IMG/VR virus record: IMGVR_UViG_3300027734_000180
Location: 1-35,010 of that record
Direction: 5' to 3' (one strand)
From: a virus
DNA length: 35,010 bases
This document shows positions 14,807-31,318 of the stretch, in pieces. The stretch's first letter is position 1, and every line of letters begins with the position of its first letter. The position numbers were made by a program, and so were the translations under genes. Below the pieces are notes generated by a model that saw only the letters and a list, made by a program, of their open reading frames with translations, did not search any database and had not been told where the DNA came from.

Positions 14807-16315
14807 CTATGCGGCGGCTTTCTGTGGGTGAGTGTGCTTGTCTAAGACCCGCTTGATGGTGTCGTGAGAGACATTGTATTTTTTCTTGGCGGCAGCATAA
14901 AAACCTTCGGTATTGGCTGGCCACTTGGCGTGCATAGTCAAGACCTCGAGTTCTTGCAAATCGTTGAGTGCTGGCGGTCTGCCTGACTTACCTTTCGACT
15001 TACCCTCTTCTTGGGTCTCCTCGGGGAGTTCTGCGACTTCCCAGTGTAGTCCCTTATCGGCGTGCTTGATGACGATGTCCGTGGTCGGGTGGCCGTGTTT
15101 ATCGACTACGGCGGCGCGGTTGCCACGCTTCGCCAGGAGAACCTTGAAGATTCCTTCGTGCTTGGTGGTCTGGAGCACGCAGATGGCGCGAGCCCAGTTC
15201 GTCAGCTCACTGGAGCCGAGGCCGATGTAGGCGTAGTCATTCGCGTTCCAGTGCGCCCGGCTCTTGCTGTCGCTCTGTGGCTTGCCGGTGTGGTGACTCC
15301 ACACCCATGCGAAGTTGTGCTCGAAGGCGAGCGGGTTGCAAAGCTCGCGCAGGAAGTGACTGGCCACAGCCTGTTGGGAAATGTCGTCGCCGATGAATGA
15401 GAGCAGTGGATCCCCGTATACCAGATCGAACGGCCCATGCTTCGCGATCAGCTCGCGGATGACCTCGATGAATGCCTCGCCGGTCTGTGCTGTGACCCGA
15501 GCAAAAACTATGTTTTGCTTAAGAATGTCACTTGCTTCTTTTTCTGTCATGCCGCTTTTCAGAACAACATGATGCATTACACCTTGCACAACTTCAGCCA
15601 TGTCGCCGAAATCGTTCTCAGCCTGCACGAGCAGGCACTTGAGTTTCTGCTTGGGCATCATTCCAAAGAATGGTAATCCCAAGGCCCAGGTCATTGCCTG
15701 TTGCAGTGTGTAGGAAGATTTGCCGATGCCCGACTGCCCGAGGAGGAGAAGTTGCCCGCCACGGCACAGCCAGCGATTACCCACCAAGGTGCTGCTGTCA
15801 TCCTCCGCCTTGTATTTCCAAAGTTGTTGAAAAGTGTGCATCTCCACGCCAGCCATGGCCGACTTTGGCTTTGCCAGGAGTTTTAGCTCCTCGAGCGCCT
15901 CGGCCACAGGCATGCTACCATCTGCCAGATTCCGGCCGATTCGGGTTGCTTTGCGGGCATTTGAGGCGGTTGCAATATCGGCCAGGTATTCGGCAATAAT
16001 GGCACCGCCCGCTGGGTTGAATGCCAGCGAGGTGTCAGCCAGCACCACACCATCCTGCCAAGAAACCATCCCGGCGGCCTTCGCCTCGGCCTCGGCGAGC
16101 TTCAGCCAATACGGCTCCCGCTCGATGGCCTCAAGGATCGTCGTGCCGACTACAGCCTTGCCAGCGTGGTGGAGCCTGTGTGCGGCGGCATAGTAGAGCC
16201 CATTCAGTGTTGAGGCGAATGCCTCCGGCTCCACGACCGCCGACTTCGGCACGCCGGCGAATCCAGCGACACTAATATAGCCGACGACGGCGCTCTCTTT
16301 CTCAGGATATTGCAT
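14807..16315 (-). CDS. RepA-like hexameric helicase / AAA ATPase (502 aa)
   Basis: The N-terminal 150 residues are helical and resemble the DnaB N-terminal region (TTILEAIEREPYWLKLAEAE, then AIIAEYLADIATASNARKAT). The ATPase core has Walker A GQSGIGKSS (193-201), CLLVQAENDFGDM with the acidic residue after beta-2, and FDLVYGDPLLSFIGDD as Walker B. AWVWSHHTGKP is the His-containing strand typical of RSF1010 RepA/AAA_25 proteins. The C-terminus has a Gly/Ser/Lys linker and an HTH-like segment (KKKYNVSHDTIKRVLDKH). It probably unwinds DNA at the adjacent iteron cluster. TAATG joins it to the methyltransferase. Confidence 0.85.
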   Translation of the reverse strand: MQYPEKESAVVGYISVAGFAGVPKSAVVEPEAFASTLNGLYYAAAHRLHHAGKAVVGTTILEAIEREPYWLKLAEAEAKAAGMVSWQDGVVLADTSLAFNPAGGAIIAEYLADIATASNARKATRIGRNLADGSMPVAEALEELKLLAKPKSAMAGVEMHTFQQLWKYKAEDDSSTLVGNRWLCRGGQLLLLGQSGIGKSSYTLQQAMTWALGLPFFGMMPKQKLKCLLVQAENDFGDMAEVVQGVMHHVVLKSGMTEKEASDILKQNIVFARVTAQTGEAFIEVIRELIAKHGPFDLVYGDPLLSFIGDDISQQAVASHFLRELCNPLAFEHNFAWVWSHHTGKPQSDSKSRAHWNANDYAYIGLGSSELTNWARAICVLQTTKHEGIFKVLLAKRGNRAAVVDKHGHPTTDIVIKHADKGLHWEVAELPEETQEEGKSKGKSGRPPALNDLQELEVLTMHAKWPANTEGFYAAAKKKYNVSHDTIKRVLDKHTHPQKAAA

Positions 16316-17736
16316 TAAATAAGTTCCTCTATCAAAACGCGAAAAGCGCGCTCTGCGGTGGCAGGCACGACTCCGTTGCCGAGGAGTCGAAGTTCGTCGG
16401 TTCGATTGTCACAGGCGACTTGCAGCTCGGCATAACCCAGCCCACCGGCAGCCCCATTAAGGTCTCCACCCAGCGCGGGTTGAGCTTGCCGCTCTGCGTC
16501 CTCTCCACCATCGGCGTGAGTTCCTTGTATTCCCGCTCCTCGTTGCCCCTGCCGCTCTTGTGGTCGCGTGCTGTGGGCGTTCCCCATTCCTTCATGTCCC
16601 TCCCCAAGCATTTCTGGTTGCTTGTTAGCTCCGTCCTCGCTCCCTCGATATGGTCGCTCGCTTGAGGAGTTGCCCAAGCCTTCGGTGTCGCCCCTACTTG
16701 GTTCTGTAGGTAGATTTGCGTTGAGGTGTTCTGGTTCTTCTCCTCTGCTACGGACGGAGTTCGCCACATTTTCTCCTGCTCCCTCGCTTGCTCGATCAGT
16801 GTCAGCCCCTGCCTCGGAGTGGTCTTGTTGGGTCTCGTTGAAGTCCCGCTGGTGCGTGGAGTCACCCAGTTCTCCTCTGCCTTCACCGCACCCGCCAGAT
16901 AAGTCCCCGAGTTCCCGTTCGGGCCGCTGCTCTCTATGTCCGGCGTGTGGGCGGTTATCGTTGGCCACAACCCTTGGCGGCTCCCATCCGTGCTGGGCTT
17001 CGCCGGGGCGGGAAGGCCAAGCTCCCCACGATTCGCCATTGCTGACAGACTCTGCCCCATCTGCCCCTTGTCGAATAAGCCAGCCTTCTCCGCTTCCATT
17101 GCACAATGTGTTGGCCAATTCGCCGCATCCTGCGTCACCACCGCGCATAGGTAGCCCTTGCCCAGCATGTGGTCGTGACTCTTGGAGCCAATCGGCCCAG
17201 TGTCCTTGTATTCGCTGGCTCTTATCGTAGGCCAAGATAAAGACCCGCTTGCGCTGGTGAGGTGCGCCGACTTCAGACGCACTGAATATTCCCCACGCCG
17301 CTTTGTAACCGATTGATTCCAGCTCTCCAATGACTTCTCGGAGTCCGAGGGAGATGTGTCCTTCGACATTTTCAAATACGCAGAGTTTGGGTCGCAGAAT
17401 CCGAATTCCGTCTGCGATAAATGGCCAGAGGTGGCGAGGGTCGTCTGTGCCGAGGCGCAGTCCGGCGTTACTGAAGGGCTGGCAGGGATAGCCCCCAGTG
17501 AGGATGTCCACGCGGTCACGAAACTCTGCCCATGGGAAGGATTTAAGATCCGTCCAGATAGGTGCTGCGTCCATGAGTCCCGCTTCCATTTTTGCGACCA
17601 AGTTCGCGCACGCGAAGGCTTCGATCTCACAAAGAGCGACCGTGCGCAGATTTCGGATAACTCGGTGGAGTCCAAGCTCAATGCCGCCGTATCCGGCACA
17701 AAGGCCGAGGTGTGTAATTGTTTTGGGAGTATCCAC
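16315..17736 (-). CDS. C5 cytosine-specific DNA methyltransferase (473 aa)
   Basis: The only available start is GTG at 17736 (in-frame TAA at 17749-17751). Motif I is GLCAGYGGIELGL (11-23). Motif IV is GGYPCQPF with catalytic Cys 85. Motif VI is FENVEG (ENV 122-124), and motif VIII is QRKRVFI (161-167). The last motifs appear at the C-terminus as LRLLGNGVVPATAERAF (about 449-465). The 270 residues between are not a normal target-recognition domain. They are polar, Gly-rich and carry a recurring [LVM][AG][ND]-[ST] motif (ELANT, VVAND, ELGDS, NVANS, GLGNS, GMGNA). Probably modifies phage DNA against host restriction. Nearly all of it overlaps a second open frame. Confidence 0.92.
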   Translation of the reverse strand: MDTPKTITHLGLCAGYGGIELGLHRVIRNLRTVALCEIEAFACANLVAKMEAGLMDAAPIWTDLKSFPWAEFRDRVDILTGGYPCQPFSNAGLRLGTDDPRHLWPFIADGIRILRPKLCVFENVEGHISLGLREVIGELESIGYKAAWGIFSASEVGAPHQRKRVFILAYDKSQRIQGHWADWLQESRPHAGQGLPMRGGDAGCGELANTLCNGSGEGWLIRQGADGAESVSNGESWGAWPSRPGEAQHGWEPPRVVANDNRPHAGHREQRPERELGDLSGGCGEGRGELGDSTHQRDFNETQQDHSEAGADTDRASEGAGENVANSVRSRGEEPEHLNANLPTEPSRGDTEGLGNSSSERPYRGSEDGANKQPEMLGEGHEGMGNAHSTRPQERQGQRGAGIQGTHADGGEDAERQAQPALGGDLNGAAGGLGYAELQVACDNRTDELRLLGNGVVPATAERAFRVLIEELI

Positions 17737-17738
17737 AT
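16332..17738 (-). CDS. Second open frame overlapping the methyltransferase, +1 register (468 aa)
   Basis: The ATG at 17738 sits two bases before the methyltransferase GTG (ATGTG), seven bases after AAAGG, so it has the better-placed start of the two. It stays open for 468 codons. It shows its own periodic motif W-x-T-P/I: SWPTIRASEYKDTG, NWPTH, LWPTITAHTPD, NWVTPRTSG, MWRTPSVAEE, AWATPQASDH, EWGTPTARDHKSGRG. It then ends with LNPRWVETLMGLPVGWVMPS. I recall this WPTP...LNPxWVExLMGxPxGW pattern from phage proteins annotated alongside cytosine methyltransferases. Real dual coding is my reading; a family search is needed. A +1 frameshift fusion product is another option. Confidence 0.6.
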   Translation of the reverse strand: MWILPKQLHTSAFVPDTAALSLDSTELSEICARSLFVRSKPSRARTWSQKWKRDSWTQHLSGRILNPSHGQSFVTAWTSSLGAIPASPSVTPDCASAQTTLATSGHLSQTEFGFCDPNSAYLKMSKDTSPSDSEKSLESWNQSVTKRRGEYSVRLKSAHLTSASGSLSWPTIRASEYKDTGPIGSKSHDHMLGKGYLCAVVTQDAANWPTHCAMEAEKAGLFDKGQMGQSLSAMANRGELGLPAPAKPSTDGSRQGLWPTITAHTPDIESSGPNGNSGTYLAGAVKAEENWVTPRTSGTSTRPNKTTPRQGLTLIEQAREQEKMWRTPSVAEEKNQNTSTQIYLQNQVGATPKAWATPQASDHIEGARTELTSNQKCLGRDMKEWGTPTARDHKSGRGNEEREYKELTPMVERTQSGKLNPRWVETLMGLPVGWVMPSCKSPVTIEPTNFDSSATESCLPPQSALFAF

Positions 17739-17740
17739 TT

Positions 17741-18178
17741 CTATTCCTTTACATCCCCCGCATACACCGCCACAGCCAGCGCCGCCCACAGGTGGGCGCG
17801 CATGCCGTAGGTTGCGCCGGGGTTCTTCTTTGTGCCCTGCGGCCCGAGGCGGTCGATGAGCGCCTGCCGAACATTGGCGTCCTTTGCCCTGGGAGAGTGG
17901 CAGAGGTGGAGTTTAGCATCGCGCCGGTAGACTAAGCGTGGCTCCACCCGAGCCACTTCCACAAATCTCCCGATCCATACACAGGTCTCGAAGACCTCCT
18001 TGCCCACCGCCATGCCGTAGCTTGCGATCATCTCGCAGGCCACGGCGTCATACTCGCGGCCGATGAGGATTTGGCGGATCTCCGCATTCGGCAGGTGGTC
18101 GGCCTCGAGGATGCGGCGCCCGTCCCAAAGGACAAACGCCGTCTCGGTAGTGCCGGGATCGAGGGCAAGGATGGTCAT
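17741..18178 (-). CDS. RuvC-like Holliday junction resolvase (145 aa)
   Basis: RNase H-fold pattern: MTILALDPGTTETAFVLWDG gives the first Asp (D7) on strand 1. VACEMIASYGM provides a central Glu (E49). The C-terminal part has KDANVRQALIDRLG and AHLWAALAVAVYAG, matching phage RuvC-type resolvases, although the last catalytic Asp position appears as His. It would cut branched DNA made during recombination or before packaging. It is joined by ATGA to the upstream gene, and its TAG stop lies two bases before the methyltransferase-locus start. Confidence 0.82.
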   Translation of the reverse strand: MTILALDPGTTETAFVLWDGRRILEADHLPNAEIRQILIGREYDAVACEMIASYGMAVGKEVFETCVWIGRFVEVARVEPRLVYRRDAKLHLCHSPRAKDANVRQALIDRLGPQGTKKNPGATYGMRAHLWAALAVAVYAGDVKE

Positions 18179-25071: not shown

Positions 25072-28000
25072 CTACTCTTCATCTTGCTGTGACACGGCGG
25101 CAGCGGCAATCGGGATTCCGAAGTAAGCCAATTCGGCAGGGTTGATCCCAGATTTGCGTTTCCACGGCTGACCTGGAGCGGGAGTGGAGGCGTATCCGGC
25201 TTTTTTGTTGGCAGCAAATGCCGAGGCGAGTTGCCTGTCATTGAGGGCGGGAATTTTTTCCAGACCAGGGAACATGGCTTCATGTGGTTCCACGCGGCCT
25301 CTGATGCGATCCCATAAAGTCCATTGTGCCGGGAAAATTTCGATGCCTATTGATTTTGCACGCTCGGCATTGATCTCCAGAGCCAGTCTGTATGCTTCGG
25401 ACATGACTTGAAAATCCTTGGGTGTTTGAACCCATTCTACGCCTTGGATTGATGCGGGAAGGTTGGGATTCACGCTTCCATCTTTCATCTGATACTTTGC
25501 CTTACGACTGCCCATGGCGGCAAACACGGCCTCGTTGACGAAATCTTTGACGCGGTCTGCGCCGAAGATTTCTGCTTGGCCGAGCACATCGTCCAGCGTG
25601 TCTGCCTTGAGTGCGGTGGGGTCAGGCAGGTTCTGCATAGCCGTGGCCTTTTCTTGTTCTGCTGCTGCCTTGGCTTTTTCAGTTTTCGCTCTACGAATTT
25701 TGGCGTCAGCTTTTCTGGCGGTGTCTTTGGATTCTGTGACGAGATCGTTGAATCGTTTCACAACAATTCCTTCAAACCTGCCGCGTATGTCGGGGTTGTT
25801 GAGAAGTTCGTCGCTGAATGCTCTGGCCATGTGGCGGTCCATAGCGGAAATGCCAGCATTCAACGGATCTTGCCAGACTCCGCCGAAGGATGCCGTTTTG
25901 GTTCCAAGACCGGACACCTGTGTGGTGAGCTTGTCTACAAAGTTTGCCCAAGATTCTTTGGGTTTTTTGATAAAGAAATCAGGATTCTTGTGGAACATTT
26001 TTGCGGCTATTACGATATTGGACAAGTCCACCGAAATGCCGATGCCGAGACCACCGCTCTTGGCGGCGGTAAATCCAAGTTCTTTTTTGAGCCGTTCATT
26101 GACTGCTTTGCGCTGATCCTTGGTAGGATTGTCTGGAAGGAGATCGGCGAACTTTTTGATTTCGTCCATTGAGCCAAATCTCATACGAGCTTGGCCAAAT
26201 TCATTTGGAAGTAGTGGTGAATTCGGAGATAGCATTCCGAAAAGGATGCCATTGAATTTTTGCACCTTGTTTCCTCGATCTGGCGTCATGGTGCGGGCCA
26301 GCTTGGCTGTGAGTTGCCCGTGCAAATCAACAGGCAGAGTTCTTACATCTACCGCGTTGGCTTTGAGGTGGAGGAGGTCGTAGTAGGTAAACTTTCCTTC
26401 AAGTCCACCGGGTATTTGCGCCACAGGTCTTCCCAGCTCATCCACAATGTTGGAGATTTTACTGATAGGGCCAAGGTTTCGGACACCGAATTCTTTACCA
26501 AACGCTTCAAATTCTTGCGGGCTCCATTGCGCTGGCTCTTTGCCTTTGTATGTGATCGTGCCGTCATTTGATACCTCCGCCTTTCCCGACACGGTAGCAC
26601 TGCGTCTCGGTAATGCACTAGATATTTTGTCCCGCCCCGCATCCGGCATGGCTTGGCCTTGGGGATTGTATAAGGCGTCTTCTGTGGCTTTGGGTAATGA
26701 TATGAGCCGGTCTCGAGAGTAGCCGGAAAGATCATTCATGTCAGTGATTGGAGATAATGACAGCTCGTCACCCATTTCGTGAGCTCCCCACATGCGATCT
26801 CCGTCGGACCAACGGCGGGCGACATCGATTGCGCTGGATGGTTGTTCGCCGTGTTTTTTTAAAAAAGAGGACAACTGCCGATCTGTCATTTTTTCGATTG
26901 GCTTTAGAGGTTTTGGTCCGCTCGGCATTGCCTGCCCTGGCAGGTCTCTTGACAAGTTTGGAAGCGGGGTGGCTACCTCGGGAAGGAGGTTTCCGTTGGC
27001 TTTGTCGTAGTCGAAATGGAAGCCGGTGCGGCCTGTGGGAGCTGTGGTATCAAGGCGGTCGAGGCGGAATTGTTTGATGGCGCTGCTGGGGCCGGCGATT
27101 TTGCCGCTGAAGGGGTTTGCGGCTTTGTTGATGTTGGTGGCGATGCCGATGAGGGAGTTGATGGCGTCGCGGCGTTGCTCGCCGATTTTGTTGGAGCCGG
27201 GTAGGTCTTGGCGGTGGTTTTCCATCCACTGCTTGAGATCGGCCTCGATGGCGCGAAGGTCGTTGTTGTAGAGGCGGCCGATGGTTGGGTCTCCGGCGTT
27301 GATGGCTTTGATGGCGCGGTTGCGGAATTGCGTGAGATCGAGGACGGAGGCGAGGAGGTTGCCTTTGCTGGTGAGTTCCCAGCCCCAGGGGATGACTTCT
27401 CGAGTGATGGCTTCCAGATTGCCGAGGTTTTTGATGCGGAAGGCACCGGTGTCTCCAGAGCCTATGGCGTGGTAGCGGGTCATCATGGATTCGCCATTGG
27501 CGGCAGCGGTCTCAAATTGTCGCGCAAAGGCACGCTGGTGCTGGGCAAAGCCGTTGAGAAAATCAAACTGCTGCGGAAGGATGCGGCCTCGGACCGTGAC
27601 TCGTCCATCGGCAGTTTTTTTAGGGCCGAGATTTGGATCTGTGGCAGGCATGAGTTTGGAGCCTGCGAGCGCTTTGACTTGCTGCTGGCGCTTGGCGGTC
27701 TCGGCATTAATGTCGCGCTGGTCGCGGAAGACGGCTTGGCCTGTAGCCGGATCGATGCGGGCGAATTCGTTAGCCATGACGCCGCCGTAGTCGTGGAAGG
27801 TAACTTGCGGGTTGTTGACGAGGTCTTGGGGGCGGGCTGCGGGAGCTACGCGGACGCCTCGGGCTTTAGTCTGGTCTGGATGGTTAATCCAATCTCGGTA
27901 GTTGTTGAGATACTGGCCGAGTTGTTTTTTAAGGACAGGATCGGTGGCGAGTATGGGATTTGCCTTGAAGAGCGGGTCTGGCTGCCCGGTTGCCGGGTCG

Positions 28001-30441
28001 ATGCGCACGCCGGAGATGGAGAGGGCGTTGGCTTGGGCGCCAAGGAGGTTTTCCATACTGCCAAGCCACGAACCGTCCGCAGGGAGGTTGCGGCGTATGG
28101 CGGCAAAGTCCATAGATTGGCTGGCTTGACGGAAGTCCTCGGCGAAAATCTCGTCGCGTGCCCAATCGAGGGGGTCGATGTCGCCTCGGAGCATGCCGGA
28201 TTGGCCGAGCTCATCCATCTTGGCGCGGATCGATGCATCTGAGACGGGGAGAGTTTGCCCAGGGAATTTTGCGGCATTTTCATTTTGAATGATTGCGCTC
28301 GCATACTCGCGGGCTCTGGCTTCGACGCCTACTTGCGTGTAGCGGCGTGTGGTGAAGGCACGAATCGCATCGGCTTGAGCGCTGCCAAGGGCTCCGGACT
28401 TGATGAGAGCGTGGCCGAGTTCGTGGGGGACGATGCCGTCGCGTTGAGCCTCGAGGTTGAGAAAAACACGGGCTTTTTCTCCTGGAGGCGCTTGGACGAA
28501 AAGACCAGCAGCGCCGGCTCCTCCAAGGGCTTGGGTGTTGGTGTCGAAGTCGGCTTTGTTGAGCGGGACAAATTGCACCTTGTCGCGGAAAAAGCCTTGC
28601 ATCGAGGCGAGGTCTCCCAGTTGTTGCGGCGAGTAGGTCTGTGCCAGTTTTGCGACATCGCCACCAGCGAGCTCGACATCCATAAACATGCGGGCGGTGT
28701 CTGAGGCTCTGGCTTCAGCGCGGCGTTGTTGCAATCCAGTGAATCGGTTGACGGCTCCGCCAAACGCTCCAAAGCCAGCGCCGAGGCCGAGCATGTTGGC
28801 GGCGGCTTTTTCTTCGTCGGCATTGAGTGCGAGGGCTACGAATGGAGCGTTTGCCGCAGCGCCTTTCACTGCGCCACTTGCCACAGCAGAGGTTCCTCGC
28901 ACGCCTTGCACAATCAGCGGATTGGATAGGGCGTCTGCAACGGCACGCGTTTGCGGCCCAAGGCGGGGATCCGCAGCCAATCGAGCCGGAGTGGACTCGA
29001 TAGGGCGGAAGCGTGTTGGATTTTCCAAGACCTCACGCACAGGAGAAAGCTCGGGGAAGGCTTTGAGCTTTGCTGCTACGGATGCCTGGGCGATGTCATC
29101 AAATCCCTCAGCAGGGTTGGCCGCTACACGAAGGATAGTGGAGGTGGGTCCAGCGACTTTTTGCACATTGCGCAGCGTGCCGAGTCCTAATTTGTAACCT
29201 ACATATGCACCACCTATGAAACGAGCCGCATCCTGTGCTTGAGACAATACCGGCACATCGGTGTCCAGGCCAAAAACTCCTCCACCGATGCCGCCTGCTG
29301 CTGACCACTTGGCGATCTTGACTTGGTTTTCTGGCGAGATGCGGGTGCCTTTCTGAATGATCTCTTGAAATCTGGCGGCACCTGCTTCCATGCCTTCGAT
29401 GCCTCTGGCGGCAGCGCGTTCCATGATGCGGGCGCCACCAGCTCCGACTTGTTTAGCCAAGCGTGAGGCACCCAGAGTCTTGGCGCCTGCGCCAAAAGGA
29501 ATGGCCATGGTGGCGATATTGGTGGGCTCGAGCAAACCGCCGGCGATGTCTGAGGTAGCCTGCATGGGTTGCTCTGTTTGATTCCGACCTGTGACAAGGC
29601 TTGTCACAAACTCCGTTGGCGCCGTGGTATTGGCGACCCATTCCTCGAGCTCTTTCTGCCGTGACCGCTCCATAACGAATCGGTCGAATTCTTCATCCTT
29701 GAGGTCTTCCGGCGTCACTGGGCGAATTGAGCGCCCCTGCTCTGCGGCGAGCATTTGTTGTCCTGCTAAACTCTCCTCAGCAGATCGGCCTGTGGTGCCA
29801 TAGACAAACTCTCCGGTTTGCTCGTCGCGCCCGATAGGCTCTGGCGCATTGGCTTGGCGAATCCAACGGGTGACATCGTTGGTGTTGCGCCAAGATTTCT
29901 TGGCTGTGGCTTTGAGTGTGGCCGGTGATGTAGCAAGAAACTCTCCGGGGTCGTCTACGATTTCGTGATAAGTTGTTCCAATGGTTTGCAGGAACTGGCC
30001 TGCGCCAGTGGCCGCATTTTCCAAGAGACCGGGGATTTTTCCTTCGGATTTTAGGCGGGCTTTGAGTTCTTTTGCTTGGAAATACTCGTCGCGGGTCGGG
30101 ATGTAGGTCGGATCGTCGTAAACGGAGGCGACTATTTTTTGATCCAAGTCATCAGTGGAGAATTCCTTTGCCTTTTCAGCCTGCTCGAGGAGGTCAATTT
30201 CCTCGGTGGTGTATTCGCGGGCCTCAAGCTGGGCGACGGGTCCCATGGCGGGTCCACGGGCAGGAAGAGCCCCCTCCCCGGTGATCAGTCCGGGTGAGCC
30301 TGTCTGTTCAGGCGCTCGGCTTGCGGCGATTGCCGTAGAGGTGTTCGGGGGTATGGGGGCGTCCTGCACCGGCAGCTCGGCGGCTGCCAGGGCATCGAGT
30401 TCGTCGGAAGTGAATTCTTTAACGGGGGATCCAGTTGCCAT
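25072..30441 (-). CDS. Giant polyvalent/internal virion protein with zincin motif (1789 aa)
   Basis: ATG at 30441 is chosen; a GTG nine codons upstream is possible. N-terminal repeats KEFTSDELDAL, REYTTEEIDLL and KEFSTDDLDQ are seen. A hydrophobic Gly/Ala-rich region (SDIAGGLLEPTNIATMAIPF, KWSAAGGIGGGVFGL) comes before residue 450. HELGH at about 673-677 (RDGIVPHELGHALIK) is a zinc metallopeptidase motif. Near 1505-1540, SGLGTKTASF and MDRHMARAF recall a helix-hairpin-helix/DNA glycosylase core. A Lys/Ala coiled segment follows. This fits phage polyvalent proteins, injected with the DNA to protect or process it. Domain functions are inferred. Confidence 0.75.
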   Translation of the reverse strand: MATGSPVKEFTSDELDALAAAELPVQDAPIPPNTSTAIAASRAPEQTGSPGLITGEGALPARGPAMGPVAQLEAREYTTEEIDLLEQAEKAKEFSTDDLDQKIVASVYDDPTYIPTRDEYFQAKELKARLKSEGKIPGLLENAATGAGQFLQTIGTTYHEIVDDPGEFLATSPATLKATAKKSWRNTNDVTRWIRQANAPEPIGRDEQTGEFVYGTTGRSAEESLAGQQMLAAEQGRSIRPVTPEDLKDEEFDRFVMERSRQKELEEWVANTTAPTEFVTSLVTGRNQTEQPMQATSDIAGGLLEPTNIATMAIPFGAGAKTLGASRLAKQVGAGGARIMERAAARGIEGMEAGAARFQEIIQKGTRISPENQVKIAKWSAAGGIGGGVFGLDTDVPVLSQAQDAARFIGGAYVGYKLGLGTLRNVQKVAGPTSTILRVAANPAEGFDDIAQASVAAKLKAFPELSPVREVLENPTRFRPIESTPARLAADPRLGPQTRAVADALSNPLIVQGVRGTSAVASGAVKGAAANAPFVALALNADEEKAAANMLGLGAGFGAFGGAVNRFTGLQQRRAEARASDTARMFMDVELAGGDVAKLAQTYSPQQLGDLASMQGFFRDKVQFVPLNKADFDTNTQALGGAGAAGLFVQAPPGEKARVFLNLEAQRDGIVPHELGHALIKSGALGSAQADAIRAFTTRRYTQVGVEARAREYASAIIQNENAAKFPGQTLPVSDASIRAKMDELGQSGMLRGDIDPLDWARDEIFAEDFRQASQSMDFAAIRRNLPADGSWLGSMENLLGAQANALSISGVRIDPATGQPDPLFKANPILATDPVLKKQLGQYLNNYRDWINHPDQTKARGVRVAPAARPQDLVNNPQVTFHDYGGVMANEFARIDPATGQAVFRDQRDINAETAKRQQQVKALAGSKLMPATDPNLGPKKTADGRVTVRGRILPQQFDFLNGFAQHQRAFARQFETAAANGESMMTRYHAIGSGDTGAFRIKNLGNLEAITREVIPWGWELTSKGNLLASVLDLTQFRNRAIKAINAGDPTIGRLYNNDLRAIEADLKQWMENHRQDLPGSNKIGEQRRDAINSLIGIATNINKAANPFSGKIAGPSSAIKQFRLDRLDTTAPTGRTGFHFDYDKANGNLLPEVATPLPNLSRDLPGQAMPSGPKPLKPIEKMTDRQLSSFLKKHGEQPSSAIDVARRWSDGDRMWGAHEMGDELSLSPITDMNDLSGYSRDRLISLPKATEDALYNPQGQAMPDAGRDKISSALPRRSATVSGKAEVSNDGTITYKGKEPAQWSPQEFEAFGKEFGVRNLGPISKISNIVDELGRPVAQIPGGLEGKFTYYDLLHLKANAVDVRTLPVDLHGQLTAKLARTMTPDRGNKVQKFNGILFGMLSPNSPLLPNEFGQARMRFGSMDEIKKFADLLPDNPTKDQRKAVNERLKKELGFTAAKSGGLGIGISVDLSNIVIAAKMFHKNPDFFIKKPKESWANFVDKLTTQVSGLGTKTASFGGVWQDPLNAGISAMDRHMARAFSDELLNNPDIRGRFEGIVVKRFNDLVTESKDTARKADAKIRRAKTEKAKAAAEQEKATAMQNLPDPTALKADTLDDVLGQAEIFGADRVKDFVNEAVFAAMGSRKAKYQMKDGSVNPNLPASIQGVEWVQTPKDFQVMSEAYRLALEINAERAKSIGIEIFPAQWTLWDRIRGRVEPHEAMFPGLEKIPALNDRQLASAFAANKKAGYASTPAPGQPWKRKSGINPAELAYFGIPIAAAAVSQQDEE

Positions 30442-31318
30442 TGGGTTGTTGAACGAAAGTTTGGCCACGAATGACGCGGGTGGCGGGTTGCTGGGGTTGT
30501 GCGGGGGCGGCTTGAGGTGCGGCTGTTTGCGGGGCTGTTTGAGGTGCGGTGGCAGGTCCGCCCATGCCTTCGATGCGGGCCTTGGCGTCGAGGAGGTATT
30601 CCTTCCAGATTGTGTCGTTCTGGTGCAGGCGGGGGCTCATGCTTTTGAGGAATTTGAGTTCGTCCTGAGAAACGGGCTTGAGGAATTTTGTCAGTTCCAA
30701 GACATCATTGTTGACGAGGCGCTCAAGCTCGGCGCGTTGAGCGGCGCGTTGGTCATTGGCTCCACCGGCATCAAGCATGGCTCCGGCTGTGCCGTCCCAC
30801 TTGCCCACAAGGTCTGTCAAAAGCGTTGAGTTTGGGCCTGTTGGGGCTGTGTATTTATTGATTTTTTCGAGGACGAGCTGCTTGCGTGTGTTGAGCTCTG
30901 CCTGCTCTTTAGCCTTGGCGATGGTCTCCTGCTCAAGCTTGCCGATATCAAGTTGGGTTTTGCGGGCCGACAACTGAGCTGCGTCTGCTTGGGCTTGGGC
31001 TTTTGGCGAGTTGCGCTCGTCGAGCATTTTCTGGATTTCCATGACGCGGGTAGCAGCGGCTTCTTGACTTGGCAAAATGCCTTGCGTCTGGATTTCGTGA
31101 ATCAATTGGCGGATGGCGGGGGGCTTGGCATCGTATTCCTCTTGGGTCTGGGCGTTCAGCACGGACCAGTCGAAGGAGAGTCCCTTAGCAGCGCGGGGTT
31201 GAGCTACAGGAGCCGCTTGTTGAGACATGTCCATTTCCGCCATAGGCCGGGTGAATGCCGCGAGGTCTTCATCCGTGGGCTGCTGGGGCAGTGCCGGGTT
31301 TTGGTAAAGGGTAGACAT
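30419..31318 (-). CDS. Virion-associated coiled-coil protein (299 aa)
   Basis: Begins MSTLYQNPALPQQPTDEDLA. A long central coiled coil (about 90-160: MEIQKMLDERNSPKAQAQAD and KTQLDIGKLEQETIAKAKEQ) is followed by a helical domain (LTKFLKPVSQDELKFLKSMS) and an Ala/Pro/Gln tail ending VQQPNGNWIPR. Its stop overlaps the polyvalent start by 23 bases. The GQTFVQQPNGNWIPR type of ending occurs in other large phage internal proteins. Probably an ejection or internal core protein working with its giant neighbour. Confidence 0.65.
   Translation of the reverse strand: MSTLYQNPALPQQPTDEDLAAFTRPMAEMDMSQQAAPVAQPRAAKGLSFDWSVLNAQTQEEYDAKPPAIRQLIHEIQTQGILPSQEAAATRVMEIQKMLDERNSPKAQAQADAAQLSARKTQLDIGKLEQETIAKAKEQAELNTRKQLVLEKINKYTAPTGPNSTLLTDLVGKWDGTAGAMLDAGGANDQRAAQRAELERLVNNDVLELTKFLKPVSQDELKFLKSMSPRLHQNDTIWKEYLLDAKARIEGMGGPATAPQTAPQTAAPQAAPAQPQQPATRVIRGQTFVQQPNGNWIPR

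Follow-up and report, generated by a model that had tools for sequence, protein, structure and literature searches.

Overlapping reading frames in phages that likely encode the two chains of one C5 cytosine DNA methyltransferase

Introduction

When C5 DNA methyltransferases are divided, naturally or artificially, with the break after motif VIII and before the recognition domain, the parts reassemble (PMC3404938, PMC5944983). In the naturally split M.EcoHK31I (PMC3404938; see also PMC3439449), the large chain contains motifs I–VIII and X and the small chain contains motif IX, and the gene for the small chain is reportedly nested within that for the large chain but in a different reading frame (Lee et al., NAR 1995). 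In M.AquI, one chain has the catalytic motifs I–VIII, its partner has motif IX and the distal recognition region, and motif X belongs to the smaller chain. Another protein concealed in a methylase gene is the ShiLan domain, an out-of-frame HNH endonuclease within a phage methylase (PMC11855218). The multispecific C5 methyltransferases of Bacillus phages have tandem, exchangeable recognition modules of ~40 residues. Long overlaps between two genes on the same strand are regarded as rare among bacteria and phages, and one member of such a pair is dropped by most gene callers.

The locus described here lies in a 35,010-nucleotide stretch of viral DNA (IMG/VR record IMGVR_UViG_3300027734_000180, positions 1 to 35,010; hereafter "the window"). 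We consider it likely (with a probability of ~0.85) that this locus is an overlapping gene pair for two chains, A and B, of one C5 cytosine DNA methyltransferase, with expression, complex formation and methylation being inferred. The principle of the split is not new, since M.EcoHK31I (and M.EaeI; YGGCCR) likewise has motifs I–VIII and X in one chain and motif IX in the other. However, the recognition domain of M.EcoHK31I is predicted to be in its large chain, whereas here it appears to lie in B as a multi-cassette array; codon-position data assign the constrained middle of the locus to B, although there are no recognition data. Furthermore, unlike in M.EcoHK31I, B spans nearly all of A, from a start 2 nt further upstream, and the context is a phage rather than a restriction-modification system. 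The window resembles M.AquI in its separation of motifs I–VIII from the distal recognition region and motif IX, but encodes motif X in chain A. As with ShiLan, a second protein is concealed in the other frame of a phage methylase gene; yet ShiLan is a homing insertion, whereas B is inferred to be a piece of the enzyme itself. The Bacillus phage enzymes are single chains, unlike the window pair, and the likeness drawn here is one of modularity.

We found no published account of the phage overlap in the open-access literature that we searched, with most subscription journals being outside its scope. Within that literature, the following are apparently unreported: how widespread the arrangement is in phages, an almost complete overlap that begins at a shared start, the array of cassettes in B, and a series of forms that range from partly to fully overlapping or fused.

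Results and Discussion

Two open frames at the window locus

Both frames are located on the minus strand, and share their start region as follows.

16315..17736, minus strand: frame A, C5 DNA methyltransferase catalytic chain, 473 aa, GTG start at 17736
16332..17738, minus strand: frame B, +1 overlapping open reading frame, 468 aa, ATG start at 17738
17736..17738, minus strand: ATG of B overlapping the GTG of A (ATGTG)
17745..17749, minus strand: Shine-Dalgarno AAGGA ahead of both the A and B starts, identified in the sequence

An earlier note, made from the sequence alone, had described two open frames starting at GTG 17736 and ATG 17738, in the same ATGTG and behind one Shine-Dalgarno. That description held: both frames are open for ~467 codons, and their 3′ ends lie within ~17 nt of each other. 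The third frame contains 21 stops and the antisense frames are full of stops. The overlap is real, with ~1.4 kb kept open in two frames. Codons of B begin at position 2 of the A codons, so that A1=B3, A2=B1, and A3=B2. The proposal that one 1.4-kb segment encodes two proteins is borne out to the extent that both frames are maintained; translation of both is inferred.

The rest of the window is that of a phage, with terminase, major head protein, Sak4-like and RuvC-like genes. It also contains a 1798-codon open reading frame on the minus strand (25072-30468), which matched none of the PHROGs.

The overlap recurs in phages and prophages

A scan of IMG/VR with B identified 65 loci, most of them similar over most of B, and all but a handful had both frames in the same phase. 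In these relatives, B is open across all of A and there are many stops in the third frame. The locus was also present in further phage records, namely those of Paenibacillus, Burkholderia, Salmonella, Klebsiella, Xanthomonas, Pseudomonas, Lactobacillus, Bacteroides, and Acinetobacter phages and of cyanophages. Based on profile classification, A and B overlap in phase +1 in 256 of the 263 retrieved phage loci. Clustering these 256 by A identity leaves 155 groups at 90%, 35 at 70%, and 10 at 50%. In these 256 loci, a median of 296 codons is open in both frames, and the third frame has a median of 15.5 stops (minimum 6). The seven exceptions comprise L129, where the end of B is in the A frame, and six loci in which nothing matched B, namely Gordonia phage Gudmit plus five stretches that terminate inside the first part of A or shortly beyond it. 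In L129 (2416-3393), the motif IX segment and the B tail are read in the A frame and motif X in the third frame; this implies an indel (or a sequencing error) near motif IX in this copy.

A scan of GTDB genomes, using as query a peptide near the C-terminus of B, gave 80 loci from many phyla, all 80 of which overlap A in +1. The same phase was found in three of three E. coli prophages. As controls, two ordinary C5 methyltransferases showed no such overlap. A small E. coli plasmid methyltransferase (L264), considered as a possible relative of EcoHK31I, lacked the B frame.

In every locus where both regions are present, B is accompanied by the A gene. The earlier note had likened B to stand-alone phage proteins near methyltransferases; this did not hold, as wherever both regions were retrieved, such a protein proved to be frame B of an A/B locus. 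An apparently stand-alone B of an Acinetobacter phage (L076), together with similar database proteins, was rejected for this reason once a profile search had found A overlapping it in +1. The note had also held that the overlap would be refuted if the second frame had no homologues, or if substitutions among relatives preserved the methyltransferase frame only. Neither refutation succeeds: B has relatives along its entire length, and selection acts on B in the middle of the locus and on A at both ends, as described below.

Codon positions assign the ends to A and the middle to B

Across relatives, the shares of differences at A1/A2/A3 are 0.30/0.16/0.54 over motifs I–VIII, 0.56/0.21/0.23 in the middle, where A1 is the third position of B, and 0.14/0.02/0.84 over motif X. 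In neighboring genes, 0.52-0.76 of differences fall at position 3 (some of these values coming from few pairs). Substitutions are thus A-coded over motifs I–VIII and motif X, and B-coded between them, and this A-B-A pattern of constraint recurs in three further clades (four in all).

Both frames also remain open to an extent for which synonymous codon choice does not account. Synonymous shuffling of A codons predicts 2.4 B stops in the N-terminal region and 2.9 in the middle, or ~5.3 per locus; none was seen in any locus once four mis-set upstream starts were discounted. Conversely, synonymous shuffling of B codons predicts 7.2 A stops in the middle, and none was seen in 44 of 44 loci. The B residues opposite motifs I–VIII show no excess conservation (0.678, vs. 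0.668 under A-synonymous permutation). Strong residue-level selection on B within motifs I–VIII is therefore unsupported, and the N-terminal third of B has only been shown to be kept open, not to be conserved.

These data bear upon the possibility that B is an untranslated open frame that results from base composition and the codon use of A. In its favor, a G+C content of 0.58 favors long open frames. Against it, the third and antisense frames are stop-rich, shuffles give ~5 stops, and the +1 frame of ordinary C5 methyltransferases contains 14-28. The codon-position data, which show B-type constraint across the middle in four clades, contradict it directly, and we regard this explanation as all but excluded.

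By sequence, chain A is a catalytic chain without motif IX or a recognition domain

The following features of chain A were located.

17470..17487, minus strand: motif IV, PCQPFS, with the catalytic Cys85 (sequence and A alignment)
17365..17373, minus strand: motif VI, ENV (sequence and A alignment)
17242..17259, minus strand: motif VIII, HQRKRV (sequence and A alignment)
16966..17019, minus strand: conserved island WPSRPGEAQHGWEPPRVV in the A spacer (invariant residues in the A alignment)
16360..16383, minus strand: motif X, LGNGVVPA (A3 share of substitutions 0.84; confident C-terminal helix)

The Pfam PF00145 match in A (E=8e-33) is limited to residues 10-177, which correspond to motifs I–VIII, and the motifs by which that family is recognized, I, IV (PCQ), VI (ENV), and VIII, are all present. 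Among the PHROGs, A matches phrog_363 (E=7e-55), and its last 27 residues, comprising motif X, match the end of phrog_1008 (positions 293-319). Motif X is thus in the same chain as motifs I–VIII, and is conserved, A-coded and helical. An AF2 model of A has a confident catalytic core (residues 7-171), a disordered stretch (~187-445), and a confident helix (446-472) that contains motif X. M.HaeIII (E=1.5e-11) and M.HhaI were the top structural matches when this model was submitted to Foldseek. Motif IX and the recognition domain are absent from chain A, the middle of which is a disordered, B-coded spacer; by sequence, A alone is not a complete single-chain C5 enzyme.

Within this otherwise unconstrained spacer, the island WPSRPGEAQHGWEPPRVV faces conserved B residues, and is apparently constrained in both frames.

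Chain B contains W-x-T cassettes and a motif-IX-like element

Two features of chain B occupy the part of the locus that encodes the A spacer.

16485..17234, minus strand: B cassette array, seven W-x-T units (17234, 17117, 16967, 16868, 16766, 16676, 16586), in the B-coded middle
16437..16484, minus strand: motif-IX-like element LNPRWVETLMGLPVGW, invariant in B alignments

In frame A, the array region is the low-constraint spacer that is disordered in the A model. Residues 270-436 of B match positions 75-280 of phrog_1008 (E=1e-21), and other nested B chains match the same profile at 1e-28 to 1e-33. The profile, that of a DNA methyltransferase, runs on into motif X, and is divided between the two frames in the window: B covers 75-280, whereas motif X of A covers 293-319. 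The invariant LNPxWVExLMGxPxGW of B resembles motif IX of ordinary C5 enzymes (as in L268: LTPRECERLQGFPDDYTDI), and LNPxWVEWLMGxPxGW sits at the place of motif IX in C5 methyltransferases, with the W-x-T cassettes ahead of it. The designations "target recognition" and "motif IX" are inferences from the position of these parts, from likeness in sequence, and from the fused relatives. Neither Pfam nor the PDB gave a match for B. An AF2 model of B alone (41 sequences) had low confidence (pLDDT 51), which was too low for it to be used in a fold search.

Of the motif claims in the earlier note, the placement of LNPRWVETLMGLPVGW after the W-x-T-P motifs was correct. Seven copies of W-x-T-P had been counted; strictly, there are only four (WVTP, WRTP, WATP, and WGTP), the other three copies being WPTI/WPTH, and the number seven holds for W-x-T. 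The recurring [LVM][AG][ND][ST] motif noted in A is present as LAYD, LANT, VAND, LGDS, VANS, LGNS, and MGNA. However, the argument that periodic motifs in both frames are hard to obtain by chance fails as independent evidence, because one and the same TGGNNNACN DNA underlies both sets, with each A motif being read one base earlier. As B codes the middle, the A motif is the echo.

In 47 loci of the window clade, B contains 199 W-x-T/S units with a median length of 36 aa, which fall into 93 families. Twenty-six of these families are common to at least three loci, in varying combinations, and cassette order differs in 3 of the 48 locus pairs that have two or more shared families. The cassettes look like recombining, swappable recognition modules, an inference made without recognition data.

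Initiation of B and the proposed two-chain enzyme

In 47 of 61 loci, the ATG of B lies 2 bases upstream of the GTG of A (ATGTG), and in another nine it starts 5 bases upstream of an A ATG. In the Acinetobacter-type clade, 50 of 50 loci have the B ATG 4 bases downstream of where A begins, a position for which A-synonymous codons predict 44%. B of the C72-type clade starts inside A, and is preceded by a Shine-Dalgarno in 81% of cases vs. 38% under the A-synonymous expectation and 13% at random positions. A Shine-Dalgarno ahead of the shared start was detected in only 29% of members of the window clade. As the loci are related, these start and ribosome-binding-site probabilities are indicative only, and binomial values overstate independence. 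Three clades nevertheless give B its own start by different routes, and independent translation is therefore favored over frameshifting.

The frameshift alternative, also raised in the earlier note, is that translation starts in A, shifts to B by a programmed +1 event after motif VIII, and perhaps returns before motif X, so as to generate one fused methyltransferase. It is consistent with each segment being constrained in one frame only (A for motifs I–VIII, B in the middle, A for motif X) and with the fused, single-ORF relatives of actinophages. However, it does not require B to be open over motifs I–VIII (2.4 stops expected per locus), or A over the middle (7.2 expected). Moreover, B has its own conserved start, with a ribosome-binding site inside A in one clade; no slippery stretch near motif VIII is conserved among the relatives; and two shifts in opposite directions would be needed. 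We consider the frameshift very unlikely, and of the two options put forward in the note, the overlapping pair is supported and the frameshift join is not.

A further alternative is that A and B act separately and merely share DNA, B being, for example, a regulator or an anti-restriction protein. There are no interaction data, and B has no Pfam match, which leaves room for this idea. Against it, A is without motif IX and a recognition segment, which B supplies; B-like segments occur in one polypeptide with motifs I–VIII and X in Gudmit (L079) and Mycobacterium phage Aggie (L351); and the A gene is alongside B wherever both regions are present. Here too, we find little to recommend the alternative, which we judge very unlikely.

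In the two-chain reading that we prefer, both chains would be initiated from one Shine-Dalgarno by overlapping initiation, without a frameshift. Chain A would contribute the SAM-binding and catalytic motifs I–VIII and the C-terminal motif X, linked by the long disordered spacer, and chain B would supply what A lacks, namely a target-recognition region (W-x-T cassettes of ~36 residues each) and motif IX (LNPRWVETLMGLPVGW). The two would come together as a single enzyme, in the manner of known split C5 methyltransferases. The A spacer would then be the shadow of the B cassettes, and the N-terminal third of B largely the shadow of the A catalytic domain. The likely role would be to shield phage DNA from restriction. 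What has been shown is that both frames are maintained, that selection is opposite in different segments, and that B starts are conserved; translation of both frames, assembly, recognition by B, methylation, and the anti-restriction role are inferred.

A bolder reading is that this is an ancient, obligate overlap, in which catalytic and recognition chains are locked in two frames in phages of many bacterial phyla, cassettes recombine with both frames remaining open, and the overlap itself is selected (for example, for co-inheritance or co-expression). We put this forward tentatively, finding it easier to doubt than to accept.

Split and fused forms in actinophages

In Gudmit and Aggie, motifs I–VIII, PTP units, a LNPRWVETLMGLPVGW-type element, and motif X are all found in one open reading frame. 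In contrast, Mycobacterium phages Kampy, KittenMittens, and Dylan (L349, L350, L352) have a short A limited to motifs I–VIII, the end of which is overlapped in +1 by a B that carries the PTP units, the motif-IX-like element, and motif X; this is the distribution of AquI, with IX and X both in B. The LNPRWVETLMGLPVGW-type element directly precedes motif X in L079, L351, and the mycobacteriophage B chains. Similarly, phrog_116 unites A-type motifs I–VIII (206-379) with B-type motifs IX–X (409-489).

In Aggie 53 (L351, 947-1462, +1) and Gudmit 58 (L079), a B-like N-terminal part is still open in +1, and the recognition region, IX, and X are in the A frame. It is possible that an indel exchanged the frames, as the arrangement would suggest.

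Annotation of the locus

The A/B overlap is found in hundreds of phages and prophages, and annotation usually shows one of the two genes. Both nested genes are annotated in two deposits (Paenibacillus phage Bloom 56/57 and Xanthomonas phage PhiXhv-28); elsewhere, only B is annotated (as in Pseudomonas phage PMG1, L071), or only A. The pair is easy to spot from the C5 motifs in A, and the W-x-T cassettes and LNPxWVEWLMG in B. If the two-chain reading is correct, many phage C5 methyltransferase entries in databases represent half an enzyme, and specificity predicted from chain A alone would use the wrong chain. The link to an assayable enzyme also makes the origin, translation, and upkeep of overlapping genes testable.

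Some open copies are annotated as pseudogenes: in E. coli Ec1117 (L265, 589-1758), the RefSeq pipeline lists an A/B locus that is open as a pair of pseudogene fragments ("missing C-terminus" and "missing N-terminus"). Finally, the B chain of L066 shares its terminal peptide, PQDLCLPLEF, with a gene that lies upstream in L067 (3107-3751), which suggests a duplicated or recombining 3′ end.
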